Assembly (NCBI GenBank): GCA_020720455.1
Contig: DYOQ01000023.1
Location: 1 to 39,371 of the forward strand
DNA: 39,371 nucleotides
Direction: 5' to 3'
DNA from: Bdellovibrio sp.
GTDB taxonomy: Bacteria > Bdellovibrionota > Bacteriovoracia > Bacteriovoracales > Bacteriovoracaceae
Each line of letters starts with the position of its first letter. The first letter of the stretch is position 1. Made by a program: the position numbers and the translations under genes. Shown one piece after another: positions 1-30,970 of the stretch. The notes beneath the pieces were generated by a model, which made no database searches, was not told the DNA's origin, and saw only the letters and a program-made list of their open reading frames with translations.

Positions 1-5
1 GAATC

Positions 6-30
6 TTTATTGCAAACTGTTTGCAATAAA
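6..30. promoter_or_regulatory. Perfect palindrome ahead of zrgA, Zur/Fur-like operator candidate
   Basis: Two 12-base arms, TTTATTGCAAAC and GTTTGCAATAAA, are exact reverse complements around a single T at position 18. The site ends 30 bases before the zrgA start codon, the right place for a repressor to block transcription. Odd-length AT-rich palindromes are typical of Fur-family regulators, and a zinc-uptake operon follows, so a Zur operator is the natural reading. That assignment is inference: the sequence does not match the enterobacterial Zur consensus closely. Confidence 0.6.
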
Positions 31-59
31 CTAATTTACAGATTGTTAAAGGAGAAACT

Positions 60-680
60 ATGTTTAAACTTATTATTACTAGTTTGTTGATTAATTTTAG
101 CGTGTCAGTTTTGGCCGCTGACAAGAAAGAGAAAAGACACCACTATGCACATGAACACGGCACAGGAAAATTAAATTTAGCTATTGAGAGTAAAAGTTTA
201 CTTGTGGAAATTGAAGTTCCGGCCCACGATATTGTTGGGTTTGAACACTATCCTGAAAGTGATACTCAGAAGAAATTAGTTAATGATGCAATCGCATCAT
301 TAAAAAATGTTGATGAAATTATTATGTTACCTCAAAGTGCAAATTGTGTATCAGAAAAGGAAGCCGTGGTTGAGGCCGAGATATTAAATGAAGGGGATCA
401 TCATGATAAAAATCATAAGGATCATAAGGATCATAAGGATCATAAGGATCATAAAGAGGGTAAAGATCATCATAAAGAGGGAAAGGACCACGATAAACAT
501 TCTGAATTTCACATTAACTACTCACTTACTTGTCAAAATATAGATAAATTAGATCAAGTAACAGTGTTAGCGTTTAAAAAATTTGCTGAAATGAAAAAAA
601 TAGTTGCTCAAGCAGTTACTTCATCTGGGCAGTTTTCTCAAACATTAGATGCAAAATCACCTGTCTTAAAATTAAAGTAG
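60..680 (+). CDS. zrgA: ZrgA-type DUF2796 periplasmic zinc-binding protein
   Basis: 206 residues. A signal peptide (hydrophobic residues 4-19, likely cleaved after LAA) sends it to the periplasm. The body has the DUF2796 look, opening with an HHYAHEHGTGKL segment, followed by a very His/Asp/Lys-rich linker at about residues 114-150 built from HKD triplets, which should bind zinc or similar metals. The start has a good GGAGAA ribosome-binding site. It is followed after 6 bases by an ABC ATPase and then an FtsX-like permease, the arrangement known from the zinc-regulated zrg operon of Vibrio cholerae. A palindrome upstream probably mediates metal-dependent repression. Function is inferred from family and context. 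Confidence 0.8.
   Translation: MFKLIITSLLINFSVSVLAADKKEKRHHYAHEHGTGKLNLAIESKSLLVEIEVPAHDIVGFEHYPESDTQKKLVNDAIASLKNVDEIIMLPQSANCVSEKEAVVEAEILNEGDHHDKNHKDHKDHKDHKDHKEGKDHHKEGKDHDKHSEFHINYSLTCQNIDKLDQVTVLAFKKFAEMKKIVAQAVTSSGQFSQTLDAKSPVLKLK
414..449 (+). repeat. Four exact 9-bp tandem repeats encoding His-Lys-Asp
   Basis: The unit CATAAGGAT occurs four times in a row without a mismatch, then continues into a degenerate CATAAAGAG-containing 18-base unit repeated roughly twice to about position 490. Being in multiples of three, changes in copy number would lengthen or shorten the metal-binding linker of ZrgA without breaking the frame. Confidence 0.9.
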
Positions 681-686
681 GTAGCA

Positions 687-1418
687 GTGGCAAATCAAAT
701 AGTCTTACACATTTCAGATTTGGTATTTAGCTGGCCCAGAAGTACTGCGCCTCTCCTCAATATTGATTTATTATCGGTCGCAAAAGGTGAAAAAATATTT
801 CTACATGGCCCAAGTGGTAGTGGGAAATCGACACTGCTAAATGTAATAGGTGGTGTGCTAGAACCTGAGCGAGGAAAGATCGAAGTTCTTGGAAAGAATT
901 TTTCGGAACTTACATCATCAAGGAAAGATCAGTTCCGAGGTGATCATATGGGGTTTATTTTTCAAATGTTTAATCTACTCCCATATTTTAGTGCTGTTGA
1001 GAACGTTGTTTTGCCGTGTGAGTTTTCCAAAATAAAATCTAAGCGTGTTTTAGAGCATGCAACTTCACTAGAAGAAGAGGCAAAACGGTTATTGACGGAA
1101 TTAAGACTTAGCGTAGAAGATTTAAGTCATAAAAATGTAACCAAGCTTAGTGTTGGACAACAACAACGAGTAGCTACAGCAAGGGCCGTTATGGGCCGTC
1201 CTGAAATAATTATTGCTGACGAACCTACGTCGGCCCTTGATTCAAATATCCGTGAGAGTTTCCTTAAGTTATTATTTGAAGAGTGTCATAAATTTGAAAT
1301 TACCCTTATTTTTGTCAGTCATGATATTAGTTTGGGAACTAAATTTGATCGTGTTATTTCACTGTGTGAGATAAATAAAGCAAACATGTCGGGTCAGATG
1401 GAACGGGAGTTTATTTAA
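687..1418 (+). CDS. ABC transporter ATP-binding protein of the zrg zinc operon (ZrgB-like)
   Basis: 243 residues, starting at GTG. Walker A GPSGSGKST is at residues 41-49, the ABC signature is LSVGQQQRVA (about 154-163; LSVGQ instead of the usual LSGGQ), and Walker B IIIADEPT with D-loop SALD follows. The subfamily is that of LolD/MacB ATPases, which power FtsX-like permeases rather than classic importers. Its TAA stop overlaps the ATG of the permease (TAATG), so the two are translationally coupled. With zrgA it forms a three-gene unit; a mechanical role in presenting or moving zinc is inferred from the Vibrio system. Confidence 0.85.
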   Translation: MANQIVLHISDLVFSWPRSTAPLLNIDLLSVAKGEKIFLHGPSGSGKSTLLNVIGGVLEPERGKIEVLGKNFSELTSSRKDQFRGDHMGFIFQMFNLLPYFSAVENVVLPCEFSKIKSKRVLEHATSLEEEAKRLLTELRLSVEDLSHKNVTKLSVGQQQRVATARAVMGRPEIIIADEPTSALDSNIRESFLKLLFEECHKFEITLIFVSHDISLGTKFDRVISLCEINKANMSGQMEREFI

Positions 1419-3267: not shown

Positions 3268-3783
3268 CTATTGCTGAAGCTGTTGGTTTTTCCCCCAGAC
3301 TTTTTCTATAATTACTGATGCAAGCACAATTAGTGGTAGAGATATTATAAGTCTAATTATTGTAAATTTAAACCCTAAATATGATGCTTCAAAAAATGTC
3401 ATAGGAATGCGGCATATTGCTGAAGCAAAAATGAATGTGTAGACGACACTTGGTTTGGCACCTTTGTTAAATAAAGAGGCAGCAACAGGAAGCGCAACGA
3501 CAATGCCTCCAACCATGGTTGATGCAAGCAAAATTACAAAGAGGAAACTGCTAATTCCAGATTGTTTACCTAGGTACTTTTCAATACTCTCTTTTTTTAC
3601 CCAAACTTCAAACAGGCCAATTAATATAAATACAGGTGGAAGTAATAGTCCCATATTTTTTAAAAAAATTACGAAGTTTTTACCAATGGTAATTCCTGGA
3701 TCAAAATCTAGAATTAAACTAACTAGAGCAAATAGCGCAAACAAAATTAGCAGTGTGATTGTTTTATCAATCTTAATTTTCAT
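3268..3783 (-). CDS. Half-size permease, COG0701/ArsP-like family (second half)
   Basis: 171 residues with about four to five membrane segments. The stretch around VGGIVVALPVAASLFNKGAKP followed by FIFASAICRIPM resembles the conserved core of the COG0701 predicted permeases, whose usual members are about 300-350 residues; this is one half. Its ATG overlaps the stop of the other half (3780-3783, ATGA), so both should be made together and form a heterodimer. Co-transcribed with the DUF3299 gene. The substrate is not visible; a metal or metalloid is possible given the zinc neighbours (inference). Confidence 0.65.
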   Translation of the reverse strand: MKIKIDKTITLLILFALFALVSLILDFDPGITIGKNFVIFLKNMGLLLPPVFILIGLFEVWVKKESIEKYLGKQSGISSFLFVILLASTMVGGIVVALPVAASLFNKGAKPSVVYTFIFASAICRIPMTFFEASYLGFKFTIIRLIISLPLIVLASVIIEKVWGKNQQLQQ

Positions 3784-4259
3784 ATTTCACCATATAAAGC
3801 GCCAATTACAAGTGAGACTAAAATTGCAACCACGTAGCTGACTAGGTTTCTTATAATCGCCATTTTGGCACCAAGAAATTTTTTTTCAATTGGATAAGAT
3901 AAAACTCCCACTAGCATTAGCGTCGTCGTGAACGCAGCGATCGCCATATATGAGATCCCCTTGCTTACAAGTATTTCTGCAAGTGGGAAAGCGATAAAGC
4001 CAGGCATAACGACAATTGATCCTAGTAGTGATGCTACAATCATTGAGTGCCATTGATTTTTCGGGCCAAGGTATTCCATGATTAGTGTGTCTGGAATAAA
4101 AAAGAGTGACACAGATATCAGACATATCATTAGAAAAAAATGAGGTAACATATTGATAAATTTTTTCTGCGCAAGAGTTAGTGCCTTAACTGTCTTTTGA
4201 CGATCTTTAAAAAAAGAGATTGCTAGGCCAATAAGACTGATTAAATATATTGCAACCAT
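3780..4259 (-). CDS. Half-size permease, COG0701/ArsP-like family (first half)
   Basis: 159 residues with about five membrane segments and a cytoplasmic Lys/Arg-rich loop near residues 18-32. The motif GSIVVMPGFIAFPLAEILV matches the repeat seen in the partner half protein, as expected for a permease built from two similar halves. It is the first gene of a leftward operon continuing into the second half (4-base ATGA overlap) and the DUF3299 gene. No strong ribosome-binding site is visible. The promoter must lie in the 100-base gap shared with the divergent ATPase gene. Confidence 0.65.
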   Translation of the reverse strand: MVAIYLISLIGLAISFFKDRQKTVKALTLAQKKFINMLPHFFLMICLISVSLFFIPDTLIMEYLGPKNQWHSMIVASLLGSIVVMPGFIAFPLAEILVSKGISYMAIAAFTTTLMLVGVLSYPIEKKFLGAKMAIIRNLVSYVVAILVSLVIGALYGEI

Positions 4260-4339: not shown

Positions 4340-4382
4340 TCGTAGAATGCATGTTGACATGCATTCTACGAGATGCTATTAT
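4340..4382 (+). promoter_or_regulatory. Inverted repeat (15-bp arms) overlapping a consensus promoter
   Basis: Arms TCGTAGAATGCATGT (4340-4354) and ACATGCATTCTACGA (4357-4371) are exact reverse complements across a two-base TG. A -35 box TTGACA (4354-4359) spans the centre, and TATTAT (4377-4382) lies 17 bases further on, giving a near-consensus sigma-70-type promoter reading right. A dimeric regulator on the repeat would cover the -35 region. No T-run follows, so this is not a terminator. The expected transcript start is close to the ATG at 4388. Confidence 0.6.
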
Positions 4383-4387
4383 TGCAT

Positions 4388-5569
4388 ATGTCATTGATTA
4401 TTCAGAGAATTATTTCAAATATGCTTAAGGTTTCAAATGAGAACTTCGATCTTGAGCCTATGGTATTTTTGACTGGTCCAAGACAGATAGGAAAAACTTT
4501 TTACTCTAAATCATTAAAGATACCTTATTATAATTGGGATACTGCGGAAGTTAAAAATTCCCATCTCAAAGACCCATATTTTTTTAGACAATCAAAGGGT
4601 TGGTTAGTGTTTGATGAAATTCACAAGCGTAGTGATTGGAAAAAAATATTAAAGGGTTATTATGATTCTCCAACAAGAGAAGAAAATATTTTGTTAACTG
4701 GCTCTGGACGATTTAATCTTTTTCAAAAAGGTGGAGATAGTTTGCAAGGAAGATATGAGCTATTTCATATGATGCCAATTACATTTGATGAGTATGATGG
4801 AAGATCAATCCCTGCATCACCAAGAGATTTTACTAGTTGGACTCCAGATCAAAATGTAAATAGTGATGGGCCATTAATTTCGTTTGGAGGGTTTCCTGAC
4901 CCACTAATTGCTCAAAATATGCAGAAGCTAAATCGTTGGCTTGATCTTTACTTACAACGATTAGTTAAGGAAGACATTCGAGATTTTAGCAAGGTTGAGT
5001 TGATTGACAAGATTGAATTGTTGGCAAGAATTCTTCCTGAGCGTATCTGTTCTCCTATATCAATGAAATCTCTGTCCGAAGATATTGAAACATCCAGAGA
5101 ATCAATTAAAAATTGGTTGCGTTTGTTTGATGTTTTGTATTTAGGAATTCAGCTACCTCCTTATTCGAGAAAAATTCATAGAGCGGTAAAAAAAGAAAAA
5201 AAATTTTATTTTTATCAATGGCCATTTTGTAATGATTTTGCAGCTCTGTTTGAAAATTATATGGCGATCCAATTGTACACTGCCTGCCAGTATTATCGGG
5301 ACCAAGGATATGGTACTTACGAACTTTACTATCTCAGAGATCAAGACGATAGAGAGGTAGATTTTTTGATTACAAATAACTTGAAACCAGTTGCCTTGAT
5401 AGAGGTAAAATCATCGCCACAGACATGGACAAAGGGGTTACATTTTTACACTGAAAAACTCAATGTTCCAAGTTTCCTTGTATATCCCCAAGGCCCAACA
5501 GTTAGAATAGAAAAAAAAGGTTATTCATTATCATCTGCTAGATTTTTAAAAAATCTCACTGCACTTTAG
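4388..5569 (+). CDS. AAA-family ATPase with DUF4143 C-terminal domain
   Basis: 393 residues from ATG 4388 (an in-frame ATG at 4373 lies before the -10 box and is unlikely; ATG 4421 is an alternative). Walker A GPRQIGKT sits near residue 30, Walker B LVFDEI near 75, and the LLTGSGRF sensor segment near 105. The C terminus has the DUF4143 nuclease-like signature REVDFLI ... ALIEVKSS, resembling a PD-(D/E)xK core. The family is widespread, often solitary, and its biological role is unsettled. It stands alone, divergent from the permease operon and convergent with the export operon, and is preceded by a strong operator-like promoter. Confidence 0.8.
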   Translation: MSLIIQRIISNMLKVSNENFDLEPMVFLTGPRQIGKTFYSKSLKIPYYNWDTAEVKNSHLKDPYFFRQSKGWLVFDEIHKRSDWKKILKGYYDSPTREENILLTGSGRFNLFQKGGDSLQGRYELFHMMPITFDEYDGRSIPASPRDFTSWTPDQNVNSDGPLISFGGFPDPLIAQNMQKLNRWLDLYLQRLVKEDIRDFSKVELIDKIELLARILPERICSPISMKSLSEDIETSRESIKNWLRLFDVLYLGIQLPPYSRKIHRAVKKEKKFYFYQWPFCNDFAALFENYMAIQLYTACQYYRDQGYGTYELYYLRDQDDREVDFLITNNLKPVALIEVKSSPQTWTKGLHFYTEKLNVPSFLVYPQGPTVRIEKKGYSLSSARFLKNLTAL

Positions 5570-23798: not shown

Positions 23799-24950
23799 CT
23801 ATAGGCCTATGAGCTGTAAACCTTCTTGCCAGGGAACGATTTTTATATCCCCACGGTTGGTACTTTTTTTTCCCATGTGAAAAACAAAGCGTTCGATACT
23901 ATTTTTAAGGCCAACATTATCTTTAAAGAAATCCAATCCTGAAAAATCTTCACTTATAAGATTCTCGCTATTTTTAACTTCAATTGCGTATAGCGTTTCT
24001 TCAATCTTAACTACAAAATCTACTTCGATACCTTGACGTGTCCGAAAACTGTAGATTGTTATATCTTTTTCCTTGGCCCATGCAGAATGTTTTAGCTGTG
24101 AGAAGACAAGTTGTTCAGCAAGAAGACCGATTCTATCGCTACTAGCGATAAAGTTTCCCAATAGACCGTTGTAAACTCCGTTATCAAAGAAAAAAAACCT
24201 TGGATGTTTAACCAGATCCAAATCGTGATATTGAAGATCTAGTGGGAATATCCGTTCTGCTATTAAAGTATCTTCTAAGATTTCAAAATATCTAGGTATT
24301 GAATGACGAGATATTTTAGAATGGTTTGCTAGTTTACTATAGTCGATAAATTGTGAGACATTCTTTGTACATTCGTTAAAAAAACGGGCAAAAGAATCAA
24401 GGTTCCTAACTAAGGCTTCGGCTTTAATTTCTTCTTTTATGTAGTTGGCAGAATAAGATTTCAAAATTCTCTTTCTCTCCTCATTGTCATTTAAGAGATA
24501 TATTTCAGGTAATGAACCAAATTCTAAATTAGTTTTAGTTTCGAGTTTGTAATTAAATTCAGATGCGACAAAAGGGCCAAGATAGAAATTAACTAACCTT
24601 CCTGGTAAAAGGTTGGCGCCACCACTTTTTAATTTTCTAGCACTCGAACCAGTGAGATAAAACTTTTTGTTTTTATTTTTATCAACAATGGCCTGAATAG
24701 AGTTTAACATTTTAGGGGCTCTTTGAATTTCATCAATGAAAATAGTTGTTGCGTTGTTAGCTTCAATTAGCTCAAGGAGCAGTTGAGGGTTAGATGAGTG
24801 ATTTAAAAAAGTTAGTTCATCGGCCAAGTTGATAGAAATATCTACCTCTATCGTCTCCATCATTGTTGATTTTCCGACCTGCCGTGGGCCAAGAAGAAGC
24901 GTGGACTTTCTGGTACGTACTAGTTTTTGCTTTATAATTCTGTTGATCAT
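23799..24950 (-). CDS. AAA-family ATPase with DUF4143 C-terminal domain
   Basis: 383 residues. Walker A LLGPRQVGKST (about 19-29), Walker B TIFIDEIQRAP (about 69-79), LTGSSARKLKSGG sensor segment (about 99-111), and a C-terminal nuclease-like IEVDFVVKIEE ... YAIEVKNS. Same family as the gene at 4388 but clearly divergent in sequence. The start has TGCTCAT/ATGAGCA inverted repeat just upstream, suggesting self-regulation. It follows parB by 62 bases on the same strand, so read-through is possible. Function of this widespread family is unsettled. Confidence 0.82.
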   Translation of the reverse strand: MINRIIKQKLVRTRKSTLLLGPRQVGKSTMMETIEVDISINLADELTFLNHSSNPQLLLELIEANNATTIFIDEIQRAPKMLNSIQAIVDKNKNKKFYLTGSSARKLKSGGANLLPGRLVNFYLGPFVASEFNYKLETKTNLEFGSLPEIYLLNDNEERKRILKSYSANYIKEEIKAEALVRNLDSFARFFNECTKNVSQFIDYSKLANHSKISRHSIPRYFEILEDTLIAERIFPLDLQYHDLDLVKHPRFFFFDNGVYNGLLGNFIASSDRIGLLAEQLVFSQLKHSAWAKEKDITIYSFRTRQGIEVDFVVKIEETLYAIEVKNSENLISEDFSGLDFFKDNVGLKNSIERFVFHMGKKSTNRGDIKIVPWQEGLQLIGL

Positions 24951-28015: not shown

Positions 28016-30970
28016 ATGTCGATAGATGCTGTTACTTCAAAAGTTTATCAAACGTTAATGCCTAAAAGAATCAGGGATATATTAATTGTCTCTAGCCCAT
28101 ATGATGCGTTTGTCATGGAAGAAGACGGTGGGATAATTGAACACGTATTTACCACTTTTAGAGGCCTCAGCTTAGTTGAGCCGCCAAGATTTACAACGGT
28201 AACAACATCTGAGGATGCGCTAAATGAGTTACATGATAAAAAGTTTGATCTAGTTATTATTATGCCAAGATTTTCCGGAATGGATGTCGTTGTCTTTGGT
28301 AAAGAGGTTAAACGGATTATTCCAAATCTACCTGTGGTTTTGTTGGTGCAGAGTCGACTAAGTTTAAATAGATATATGTCTATTGTAGATCCAGAGAGCA
28401 TTGATAGGATATTTATCTGGTCTGGTAATAGAACTATTATGTGGGCAATAGTTAAATGGATTGAGGATGAAGAAAATGTGGAGCATGATACAAAGCTTGC
28501 GATGGTAAGAGTGCTAATCTTAGTTGAGGATTCTCCATACCATTACTCGTCTCTGCTTCCTATTTTGTATGATTCAATTGTTCAACAGAGTCAAGCGATT
28601 GTGGATGATACTTTAAATGAAGAGCATCGCTTGCTTAAATTGCGTGCGAGACCAAAAATTCTACTTGCCTCTAACTACGAAAACGCAGTTAAGCTGTGTG
28701 ATAAGTACCGGCCATATCTCCTTGGAGTTTTTTCCGATACTAGGTATCACATGAATGGAAAAGAAGAGCCGCTAGCGGGAGTGAGACTTTTAGAAAAAAT
28801 AAAGTACGAGATGCCACATGTTCCAATTCTTTTGCTAAGTACTGAAGGAAAAAATAGAGAGAGTGCAATTCGGTTAGAAGCATATTTTCAGGATAAAAAC
28901 TCTAAAACACTTCATCAGGATATTAAAAACTTTCTCGTTGATCATATGGGATTTGGTGATTTCATTTTTAGATTGCCAAGTGGTAAAGAGGTTGGAAGAG
29001 CATCTAATCTTCTTGGCTTAGAAAAAAAATTAAAAACAGTACCTCGAGAATCGTTACTTTATCATGTAGCGCTCAATCATTTTTCAAGTTGGTTGATGGC
29101 CAGAGGAGAGATTGATATTGCATTGAAGTTTAGAGGTCAGAGATATTCAAACTTTCAAGGAATAGATGAGATTAGAGATTATTTGGTTGCTAGTTTACAT
29201 GAAAGAAGAATGAGGCAACAAGAAGGAGTCGTTTCATCTTTTACTGCTAGTGAGTTTGACTCAGAACAGATGTTCTTAAAGATTGGAGATGGTTCACTAG
29301 GAGGAAAAGCTAGAGGTTTAGCGTTTATGGCAAAATATTTGCAGAGAAGGTTGAGTTCATTCGAGGAGTTTGAAAATGTTATTATTACTATTCCTCAGAC
29401 TTTAGTTCTTACCACTGATTGTTTTGATAAATTTATTGAAGAGAATAATCTTTCAAATTTTGCTCAGGTTGAATGTAGCGATGAAGTAGCAGCTTCACGT
29501 TTTATTAATGCTAAATTGCCAACATATATAGAAGAGTGTTTGCGGTCATTCTTAGAAGTTACGACACATCCACTAGCTGTAAGATCGTCAAGCTTGTTAG
29601 AAGATAGTCGTGATGAACCTTATGCTGGGCTTTATAAAACATATATGATCCCAAATAATCATCCTGATATTGAAGAGCAGGTAAGTCAACTTTCTATCGC
29701 AATCAAGTTGGTATACGCCTCGATATTTTATGAAGGGCCTAGAGCTTACTCGAGAAATACTCAGCATCGAACAGAAGAAGAAAAAATGGGTGTTGTTATT
29801 CAGCAAATTATCGGTAGGAAATATGGCGATTATTTTTATCCTGCAATATCTGGTACTGTTCAATCATATAATTATTATCCGTTTCCAAATATGAAAGCAG
29901 ATGAGGGGATTGCACAGATTGCAATAGGATTAGGGAAAATCGTTGTGGAAGGCGGACAAGCATTGCGTTTTGCTCCAAAATTTCCACAGAGCTTACCTCA
30001 GTTTTCAAAGGTTGATGATATTCTTAAAAATTCACAAAAATATTTTTATGCGCTCAAATTAAACTACGATATTAATGATCTCTGGTTGGATGAAGATGTC
30101 ACGCTTGCAAGGAGAGAGATCGAAGACGCAAATGACGAGATCCCTGTGAAAATGCTTTCGAGTAGTTTTTCAAGCGAAGATTATCGGTTGAGAGATTATT
30201 ATGATGGTAAGACGGGTTCGCCAGTTGTCACTTTTGCTAGTGTTTTAAAATACGATAAAATTAAATTGCCACAAGTTCTGTCAAAATTAATTGAATTAGG
30301 AAGAGAAGGTTTTGGTTGTGAACTTGAAATGGAGTTTGCTATCAATTTGACCAATAATCCAAAAAAGAAACATGAGTTTGTTTTGTTGCAGGCCAGACCA
30401 ATGACTATTCCCTATGATGATTTAGATGTTGAGATTACGGAAGAAGATCAAAAAAAAGCAATCTGCTACTCAACAAATGCTTTAGGAATTGGAGTTTTTG
30501 AAAATATTAGTGATATTATTCTAGTTAAACCTGATAGTTTTTCATTTAAAACTACACTAAAAACAGTCAAAGAGATCTCAGATATTAATGTTAGGTTAGA
30601 CAAAGAGAATCGTAAATATCTATTGGTCGGACCAGGGAGGTGGGGAACCTCAGACCACTCGCTTGGAGTCCCTGTATCTTGGCAAGATATCTCGGCAGTT
30701 GGGGCAATAGTTGAAGCTACAACCAAAACTTTTAGGGCCGATCCATCACAGGGAACCCACTTTTTTCAGAATATCACAAGTCTTGGGATAATTTATTTAA
30801 CTGTTTATGGAGAGAAAGATTATATTGATTGGAGTTGGTTTATGTCACAAGAGTACGTGCATGAAGCTGAGTTTGTTAGGCACATAAGGCTGAGCGAACC
30901 ACTCAAGTTAAAGATTAGTGGTAAAAAAAATCAAGGGGCCATACTGCATAAAAGTTGGGCCGGTCGTTAA
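28016..30970 (+). CDS. Receiver-like and PEP-synthase ATP-grasp fusion protein
   Basis: 984 residues. Two response-regulator-like domains come first (about 20-160 and 165-310), but the first lacks the phosphoacceptor Asp (IIMPRFSG replaces the usual LLD-MPG), so phosphorylation there is unlikely. An ATP-grasp domain of the pyruvate phosphate dikinase/PEP synthase N-terminal type follows (about 420-800), with GGKARGLAFM, HPLAVRSSSLLEDS and LLQARPMT. The swivelling phosphohistidine and PEP-binding TIM-barrel domains of real PEP synthases are absent; instead there is a conserved-looking C-terminal segment with GPGRWGTSD and DPSQGTHFFQNI. Preceded by GGGGGAAATATAG. Catalysis of full PEP synthesis is doubtful; similar proteins exist in other bacteria. 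Confidence 0.78.
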   Translation: MSIDAVTSKVYQTLMPKRIRDILIVSSPYDAFVMEEDGGIIEHVFTTFRGLSLVEPPRFTTVTTSEDALNELHDKKFDLVIIMPRFSGMDVVVFGKEVKRIIPNLPVVLLVQSRLSLNRYMSIVDPESIDRIFIWSGNRTIMWAIVKWIEDEENVEHDTKLAMVRVLILVEDSPYHYSSLLPILYDSIVQQSQAIVDDTLNEEHRLLKLRARPKILLASNYENAVKLCDKYRPYLLGVFSDTRYHMNGKEEPLAGVRLLEKIKYEMPHVPILLLSTEGKNRESAIRLEAYFQDKNSKTLHQDIKNFLVDHMGFGDFIFRLPSGKEVGRASNLLGLEKKLKTVPRESLLYHVALNHFSSWLMARGEIDIALKFRGQRYSNFQGIDEIRDYLVASLHERRMRQQEGVVSSFTASEFDSEQMFLKIGDGSLGGKARGLAFMAKYLQRRLSSFEEFENVIITIPQTLVLTTDCFDKFIEENNLSNFAQVECSDEVAASRFINAKLPTYIEECLRSFLEVTTHPLAVRSSSLLEDSRDEPYAGLYKTYMIPNNHPDIEEQVSQLSIAIKLVYASIFYEGPRAYSRNTQHRTEEEKMGVVIQQIIGRKYGDYFYPAISGTVQSYNYYPFPNMKADEGIAQIAIGLGKIVVEGGQALRFAPKFPQSLPQFSKVDDILKNSQKYFYALKLNYDINDLWLDEDVTLARREIEDANDEIPVKMLSSSFSSEDYRLRDYYDGKTGSPVVTFASVLKYDKIKLPQVLSKLIELGREGFGCELEMEFAINLTNNPKKKHEFVLLQARPMTIPYDDLDVEITEEDQKKAICYSTNALGIGVFENISDIILVKPDSFSFKTTLKTVKEISDINVRLDKENRKYLLVGPGRWGTSDHSLGVPVSWQDISAVGAIVEATTKTFRADPSQGTHFFQNITSLGIIYLTVYGEKDYIDWSWFMSQEYVHEAEFVRHIRLSEPLKLKISGKKNQGAILHKSWAGR

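Follow-up and report, generated by a model that had tools for sequence, protein, structure and literature searches.

A two-receiver protein with a PPDK_N ATP-grasp domain and a probable diverged swivel domain, linked to glutamate dehydrogenase genes in many of its relatives

The stretch of DNA analysed here, referred to as the window, is the 39,371-nucleotide contig DYOQ01000023.1 of Bdellovibrio sp. (assembly GCA_020720455.1). At positions 28016-30970 of its plus strand lies an uninterrupted open reading frame (ORF) encoding 984 amino acids, with an ATG start, a TAA stop and, 8 bases 5' of the ATG, an AGGGGG run that resembles a ribosome-binding site. The gene is present as a single copy in the 2.7-Mb, 97%-complete genome. 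Its relatives form a family alignment of 92 rows with 39-58% identity, and the maintenance of this similarity over so many rows rules out a chance ORF or a chance architecture. An initial annotation, made from the sequence alone, had described receiver-like domains fused to an ATP-grasp domain of the phosphoenolpyruvate (PEP) synthase type, and had proposed structure prediction and analysis of the gene neighbours of homologues as checks. Both were carried out. We regard a receiver-gated, histidine-phosphorylating dikinase that serves the metabolism around glutamate dehydrogenase (GDH) as the best explanation of this protein, with a probability of about one half. The full-length AlphaFold2 model, calculated from the 92-row alignment, has a mean pLDDT of 86 and a pTM of 0.75, and together with Pfam, structural alignment by VIA-align and column counts it divides the gene as follows.

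28016..30970, plus strand: complete gene, receiver 1, receiver 2, helical domain, PPDK_N domain and C-terminal domain (AlphaFold2 model)
28067..28480, plus strand: receiver-like domain 1, residues 18-155, without the aspartate, M83 at the phospho-Asp position (VIA-align, column counts)
28505..28954, plus strand: receiver domain 2, residues 164-313, with E171, D172, D241, S275 and K294 (VIA-align, column counts)
28736..28738, plus strand: codon of D241, the predicted phosphorylated Asp (column counts)
28991..29293, plus strand: small helical domain, residues 326-426, with a weak resemblance to DUF5752 and a conserved His, H350 (Pfam, model)
29294..30454, plus strand: PPDK_N ATP-grasp domain, residues 427-813 (Pfam E 1.7e-34; VIA-align)
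30458..30967, plus strand: C-terminal domain, residues 815-984, predicted swivelling beta/beta/alpha domain (AlphaFold2, VIA-align)
30758..30760, plus strand: codon of H915, candidate phosphohistidine (conservation, model)

The N-terminal half bears out the initial annotation, which had seen two receiver-like domains there, the first of them without a phosphorylatable Asp. Pfam Response_reg matches two stretches of the protein below threshold (24.8 bits for a cut-off of 30.2), and VIA-align superposes residues 18-155 of the model on PorX receivers with Z up to 13.9 and residues 165-315 on the ComE receiver with Z 15.8. The profiles of the two domains are related to each other (hhalign P 9.9e-7). 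Receiver 1 combines the receiver fold with a phospho-Asp column that holds Met in 77 of 92 rows and Asp in none, and it is an Asp-less receiver (ALR). Receiver 2 has the fold together with the phospho-Asp, Lys and Ser/Thr of a regular receiver, and these are strongly conserved (D241 in 91, D172 in 87, S275 in 90 and K294 in all 92 rows). The helical domain that separates receiver 2 from the ATP-grasp domain has roughly 100 residues, appears as helices in the model and reaches 20.4 bits with Pfam PF19027, under the cut-off of 23; its H350 (window 29063-29065) is kept in 90 of 92 rows.

The ATP-grasp domain, which was also part of the initial annotation, superposes on the corresponding domain of rifampin phosphotransferase (RPH) with a VIA-align Z of 26.0. 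Four of its residues, K431, R523, E773 and Q792, are invariant in the 92 rows, and E771 and R794 are found in 91. We take these to be the equivalents of K22, R92 and the residues near 321-337 of pyruvate phosphate dikinase (PPDK). In RPH the equivalent ATP-grasp lysine, Lys22, is essential (PMC4844700; this and the other papers cited are used through excerpts). We are confident that the domain is active, and in having a PPDK_N ATP-grasp domain with its catalytic residues the protein agrees with PEP synthase and PPDK.

The agreement does not extend to the PEP/pyruvate barrel (PF02896), which is absent from a protein that ends after its C-terminal domain, and the initial annotation was right in stating that the normal PEP synthase reaction is out of its reach. 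It had also considered that a separate gene might supply the missing domains. The genome, 97% of which is assembled, contains a single match to PF02896 and a single one to the swivel family PF00391, both inside one complete PPDK of 891 amino acids, so we rejected a PEP synthase working in trans. A half-enzyme completed by another gene would explain the PPDK_N homology, but no such partner was recognised among the recurrent neighbours of the family (GDH and others, in clusters annotated in part), and we consider it extremely improbable. Since the barrel is neither in the protein nor provided by a separate gene, the protein is not a PEP synthase, and an acceptor other than pyruvate, or a sensing role, is to be expected, as initially suggested. 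Although it falls outside the PEP synthases because it has neither the barrel nor the canonical swivel motif, it probably works like a dikinase.

The part of the protein on which this depends is the C-terminal domain, which the initial annotation had called novel, pointing to its conserved motifs. The motifs GPGRWG and PSxG[ST]HFF are indeed nearly invariant among the family rows and a Pfam scan of the domain gives no match, but its fold may not be new. Folded alone with AlphaFold2 from 88 rows (pLDDT 90.7, pTM 0.90), it aligns in VIA-align with RPH (5fbu, residues 761-867, Z 6.8), EI (2eza, Z 6.4), EI-Ntr (5t1o, Z 6.4) and PPDK (5jvj, residues 390-509, Z 6.2). All four are among the seven top matches, as are the C-terminal domains of two pyruvate kinase entries, a domain that we take to be a relative of the swivel domain. 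The stretch of RPH that was matched corresponds to its swivel domain, given as residues 767-865 (PMC4844700). Alignments of the full-length model lead to the same place: PEP synthase 2ols (Z 25.6, 367 residues, rmsd 4.8, model 408..980 on chain 4..467), RPH 5hv2 (Z 21.2, 375 residues, rmsd 5.5, 403..980 on 8..867) and PPDK 1dik (Z 18.3, 350 residues, rmsd 4.6, 418..980 on 7..511) are each covered by a single alignment that spans the ATP-grasp domain and the C terminus and ends at residue 980. The position of the C terminus in the chain is that of the swivel domain in PEP synthase.

The same region contains a candidate for the phosphorylated residue. H915 is invariant in the 88 C-terminal rows and present in 90 of the 91 full-length rows that have a letter there, and the single exception, L107, has a reading frame that departs from the alignment at this point. 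In the model of the C-terminal domain H915 is the first residue of a helix, following a strand and a loop, and the residue before it is Ser or Thr in 90 of the 91 rows; the known swivel His is preceded by Thr, Ser or Cys (PMC12167813). Across the whole 984 residues, H915 and H350 are the only conserved histidines.

Several results weigh against a swivel domain. Comparison of the C terminus with PF00391 profiles in hhalign, one of them built from 27 swivel sequences, was not significant (P 0.11 and 0.09), and H915 pairs with the catalytic His of PF00391 only at a near-zero posterior threshold, a pairing that we do not count as evidence. An hmmsearch of the C terminus with the PDB returned unrelated weak matches only (best E 0.025). 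Foldseek with the C terminus alone found nothing at E <= 0.001 (best E 0.018), and it ranks glutathione peroxidase and peroxiredoxin chains first. The VIA-align Z scores of the domain are all below 8, with unrelated proteins close behind at Z 5-6, and PSxG[ST]H stands in place of the canonical GGxT(S/C)H that surrounds the catalytic His of swivel domains (PMC12167813). Because sequence profiles do not confirm the homology, we regard the swivel identity as likely but unproven: to judge from the predicted fold, the structural alignments and the invariant histidine, the C terminus is probably a strongly diverged swivel domain, and the initial statement that the protein has no swivelling phosphohistidine domain is probably wrong. 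We also consider it likely that H915 is a phosphocarrier.

The distance of the C-terminal sequence from all known swivel domains, with the loss of the GG motif, could also be read as loss of function. The protein would then be a non-catalytic regulator whose ATP-grasp domain senses ATP, ADP or AMP, whose swivel-descended C terminus carries no phosphate, and which binds and tunes GDH, a role that suits the receivers and the adjacency to GDH described below. Pure sensing, however, would not call for conservation as strict as that of the ATP-grasp residues (92 of 92 rows) and of H915 (90 of 91), and we think such a regulator unlikely.

The acceptor side of the proposed dikinase is suggested by the gene neighbourhood of the family. 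We clustered the neighbours at 92 loci (L031-L122), calling ORFs with a simple longest-ORF script, so that some neighbour ORFs will be false. GDH is the single dominant cluster besides the family gene itself, found at 42 of the 92 loci; at 31 of these 42 it directly follows the family gene in the same orientation. The neighbours scanned at L034 and L057 are NADP-type GdhA. Same-strand gaps between family gene and GDH are typically 15-170 bases, and at some loci GDH lies upstream in divergent orientation, 213-608 bases away. In Parabacteroides and Phocaeicola GDH is a divergent neighbour with a second GDH 3.5-4.1 kb further, and in Prevotella no GDH lies within 8 kb of the family gene. Other neighbours were noted as well: a Glu_synthase-domain gene is directly upstream of the family gene at L057, L059, L066, L067 and L068, four of which also have GDH downstream, and at L081 glnA is 752 bases away. 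At L038 (L038:6735-7934, G029:C40), another of the loci scanned, the gene beside a family member of 978 amino acids encodes a degenerate GDH-like protein; the dimerisation domain is all that Pfam recognises in it.

We followed the linkage over a tree of 105 rows, paralogues included; leaving out 20 rows whose flanks were too short or whose data were missing gave 85 informative rows. In 44 of these, and in five phyla, a GDH gene is found within 1 kb. Bacteroidota, which the initial annotation had named for neighbour analysis, are among the groups that have relatives. The linked rows fall on both sides of the midpoint root, with 18 state changes over a FastTree tree in which 33 of 101 inner branches are open; 14 rows, namely the window and 13 that were added, had their labels entered by hand, and L083 and L198 are one locus counted twice. 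The linkage also holds for distant paralogues of a single genome: L032 and L033, whose identities with the window protein are 39% and 49%, both have a GDH of their own at a distance of 22 bp.

The presence of the family in a genome goes with the type of GDH as well. The GDHs were divided by eye into a long type, with 51-100% identity to the query, and a short type, with about 31-37%. Of the 12 genomes that carry the family gene 11 have a long-type GdhA, as do 6 of the 85 that lack it (97 genomes; Fisher P 1.4e-9, in a test that ignores the relatedness of the genomes, which weakens the case); G054 was assigned to the long type from a fragment of 113 residues. In G029, the one exception, a GDH of the short type is found at 648 bases from a tandem variant of the family with 1650 amino acids. 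In the 11 genomes only the long type was found, and most of the others have the short type, so the two types seem to replace each other.

Other observations speak against a link of the family to GDH. In 41 of the 85 informative rows GDH is not within 1 kb, and the window gene is one of these, there being no GDH gene in the window; the long-type GdhA of its genome is on another contig with no family gene beside it. When the partner GDHs were compared with GDHs of genomes that lack the family (45 and 5 sequences), four columns differed, none of them a convincing acceptor residue. Weighing both sides, we consider a functional link between the family and GDH very likely, and the more specific idea that the GDH protein is itself the acceptor rather doubtful.

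Put together, these elements suggest a response regulator with a dikinase engine as its output. Phosphorylation of D241 in receiver 2 would gate the PPDK_N ATP-grasp domain, and Asp-less receiver 1 could have a structural or constitutive role. The ATP-grasp domain would use ATP to phosphorylate H915 of the diverged C-terminal swivel domain, as happens in PEP synthase, PPDK and RPH. Because the PEP/pyruvate domain is missing, the phosphohistidine would be used elsewhere, and the gene neighbourhood points to GDH or its metabolites as what it would serve. The data themselves show the architecture, the conserved residues of the ATP-grasp domain and of receiver 2, and the association with GDH among the relatives; the swivel function, the phosphorylation of the histidine, the gating and an acceptor on the GDH side are inferred from them.

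Two variants of such chemistry deserve comment. The protein might be a metabolic dikinase for a small molecule, phosphorylating a metabolite near GDH or of another pathway, much as RPH or HpeHI does, at a rate controlled by the receivers. RPH, HpeHI and PpsAB show that the engine serves many substrates (PMC4844700, PMC12167813), and GDH and, at five loci, the Glu_synthase-domain gene lie nearby. Pfam, however, makes no extra substrate-binding domain evident, the helical domain and the receivers being all that is left over, and we hold this variant to be improbable. The other is a dedicated covalent switch of GDH, in which a signal-gated dikinase would act through the diverged phosphohistidine domain, either by phosphorylating GDH or by supplying it with a small effector that carries the phosphate. 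We give this little credence, but if true it would be the GDH counterpart of the action of GlnE and GlnD on glutamine synthetase. It could also explain a reversible inactivation of GDH reportedly seen in Bacteroides in the 1980s, of which a search of open-licence PMC papers found no account. Of all these possibilities, the receiver-gated, histidine-phosphorylating dikinase serving GDH metabolism in a manner left general is the one we prefer.

Members of the family are found in several phyla. A long match was found in 12 of 97 near genomes, the window genome included, the remaining weak matches resembling ordinary PEP-synthase-like proteins; in the phylum, 19 of 290 genomes encode the C-terminal domain. 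A scan with sequence patterns over 84,980 species, one genome each, detected no fewer than 578 relatives. The 80 best of them were retained and are mostly from Desulfobacterales, with Anaerolineae/Chloroflexota, one Planctomycetota and one Victivallales record, and Bacteroidales also carry relatives. A query of genome contigs with the single protein found no relatives, which were recovered by the alignment query. Among 17 named genomes, seven have one copy and ten have two or three.

In all ORFs examined, variants included, the C-terminal domain sits behind a PPDK_N domain. The 1650-amino-acid ORF mentioned above (L031:5521-10470, G029:C44) has PPDK_N and the C-terminal domain in two copies and a terminal NTP_transf_2 domain. 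A relative of 862 amino acids (L192:6801-9389, G304) has an N-terminal half that differs from the family and gives no Pfam match at 1e-5; PPDK_N follows, and then the C-terminal domain of the family, in which the motif reads SFGTHFF. At L193:3478-9550 (G308) two family members stand in tandem 46 bases apart, with no GDH in the stretch read.

We rejected a viral origin, since 47 IMG/VR stretches matched the two search patterns and none was confirmed, as well as a role in anti-phage defence, for which no PADLOC family was found. Relatives are encoded on three faecal scaffolds filed as 'Bacteriophage sp.' (MT835811.1, MT835667.1 and MT839982.1), two of them marked unverified, and these are probably bacterial DNA filed as phage.

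In the window, the gene is preceded by nadA and parA/parB-like genes and followed by genes for a TPR protein and an oligopeptide ABC transporter; nadA recurs at none of the 92 family loci. Elsewhere in the window, two adjoining half-size ORFs (3268-4259) each match the ArsP_1 permease and are either a split gene or natural halves, and there are two AAA_14/DUF4143 ATPase genes (4373-5569 and 23799-24950), one of which adjoins the ParB/ParA-like genes.

Among open-licence PMC papers we found nothing that characterises this family or its link to GDH. Fusions of receivers with PPDK are nevertheless already noted in print: a 2015 survey lists pyruvate phosphate dikinases among the effectors highly associated with ALRs (PMC4395418), and these may include the present family, although the excerpt available says nothing of a second, intact receiver, of a missing barrel or of GDH. 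The one annotated relative that we saw, WP_041525632.1 of Parabacteroides distasonis (39% identical over 98% of the length, divergent beside gdhA), is named by domain alone as a 'PEP/pyruvate-binding domain-containing protein'. A family without a name of its own becomes a testable candidate in the control of ammonia assimilation, with a GDH link that is seen in several phyla, the Bacteroidales of the gut included. It would also add a diverged swivel domain to the dikinase superfamily, whose members keep proving active on unexpected substrates.

Among known systems, PEP synthase and PPDK (2ols, 1dik) share with the 984-residue protein an ATP-grasp domain followed by a swivel-type domain, here predicted, both covered by the structural alignment, and differ in having the PEP/pyruvate barrel, in lacking the two receivers and in a swivel domain that PF00391 recognises. 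The phenolic dikinases HpeHI, PpsAB and CreHI apply an engine of ATP-grasp and swivel His to substrates other than pyruvate, and when the whole model is searched with Foldseek, HpeI (9goj) ranks first. They are split over two genes and have a domain for aromatic substrates, and the excerpt describing them mentions no receivers (PMC12167813). RPH (5hv1, 5hv2, 5fbu) resembles the protein in a PPDK_N ATP-grasp domain of the same fold, a C-terminal His swivel domain, here predicted, and the lack of a pyruvate domain, but it places a large drug-binding domain between the two, keeps the canonical swivel motif and has no receivers.

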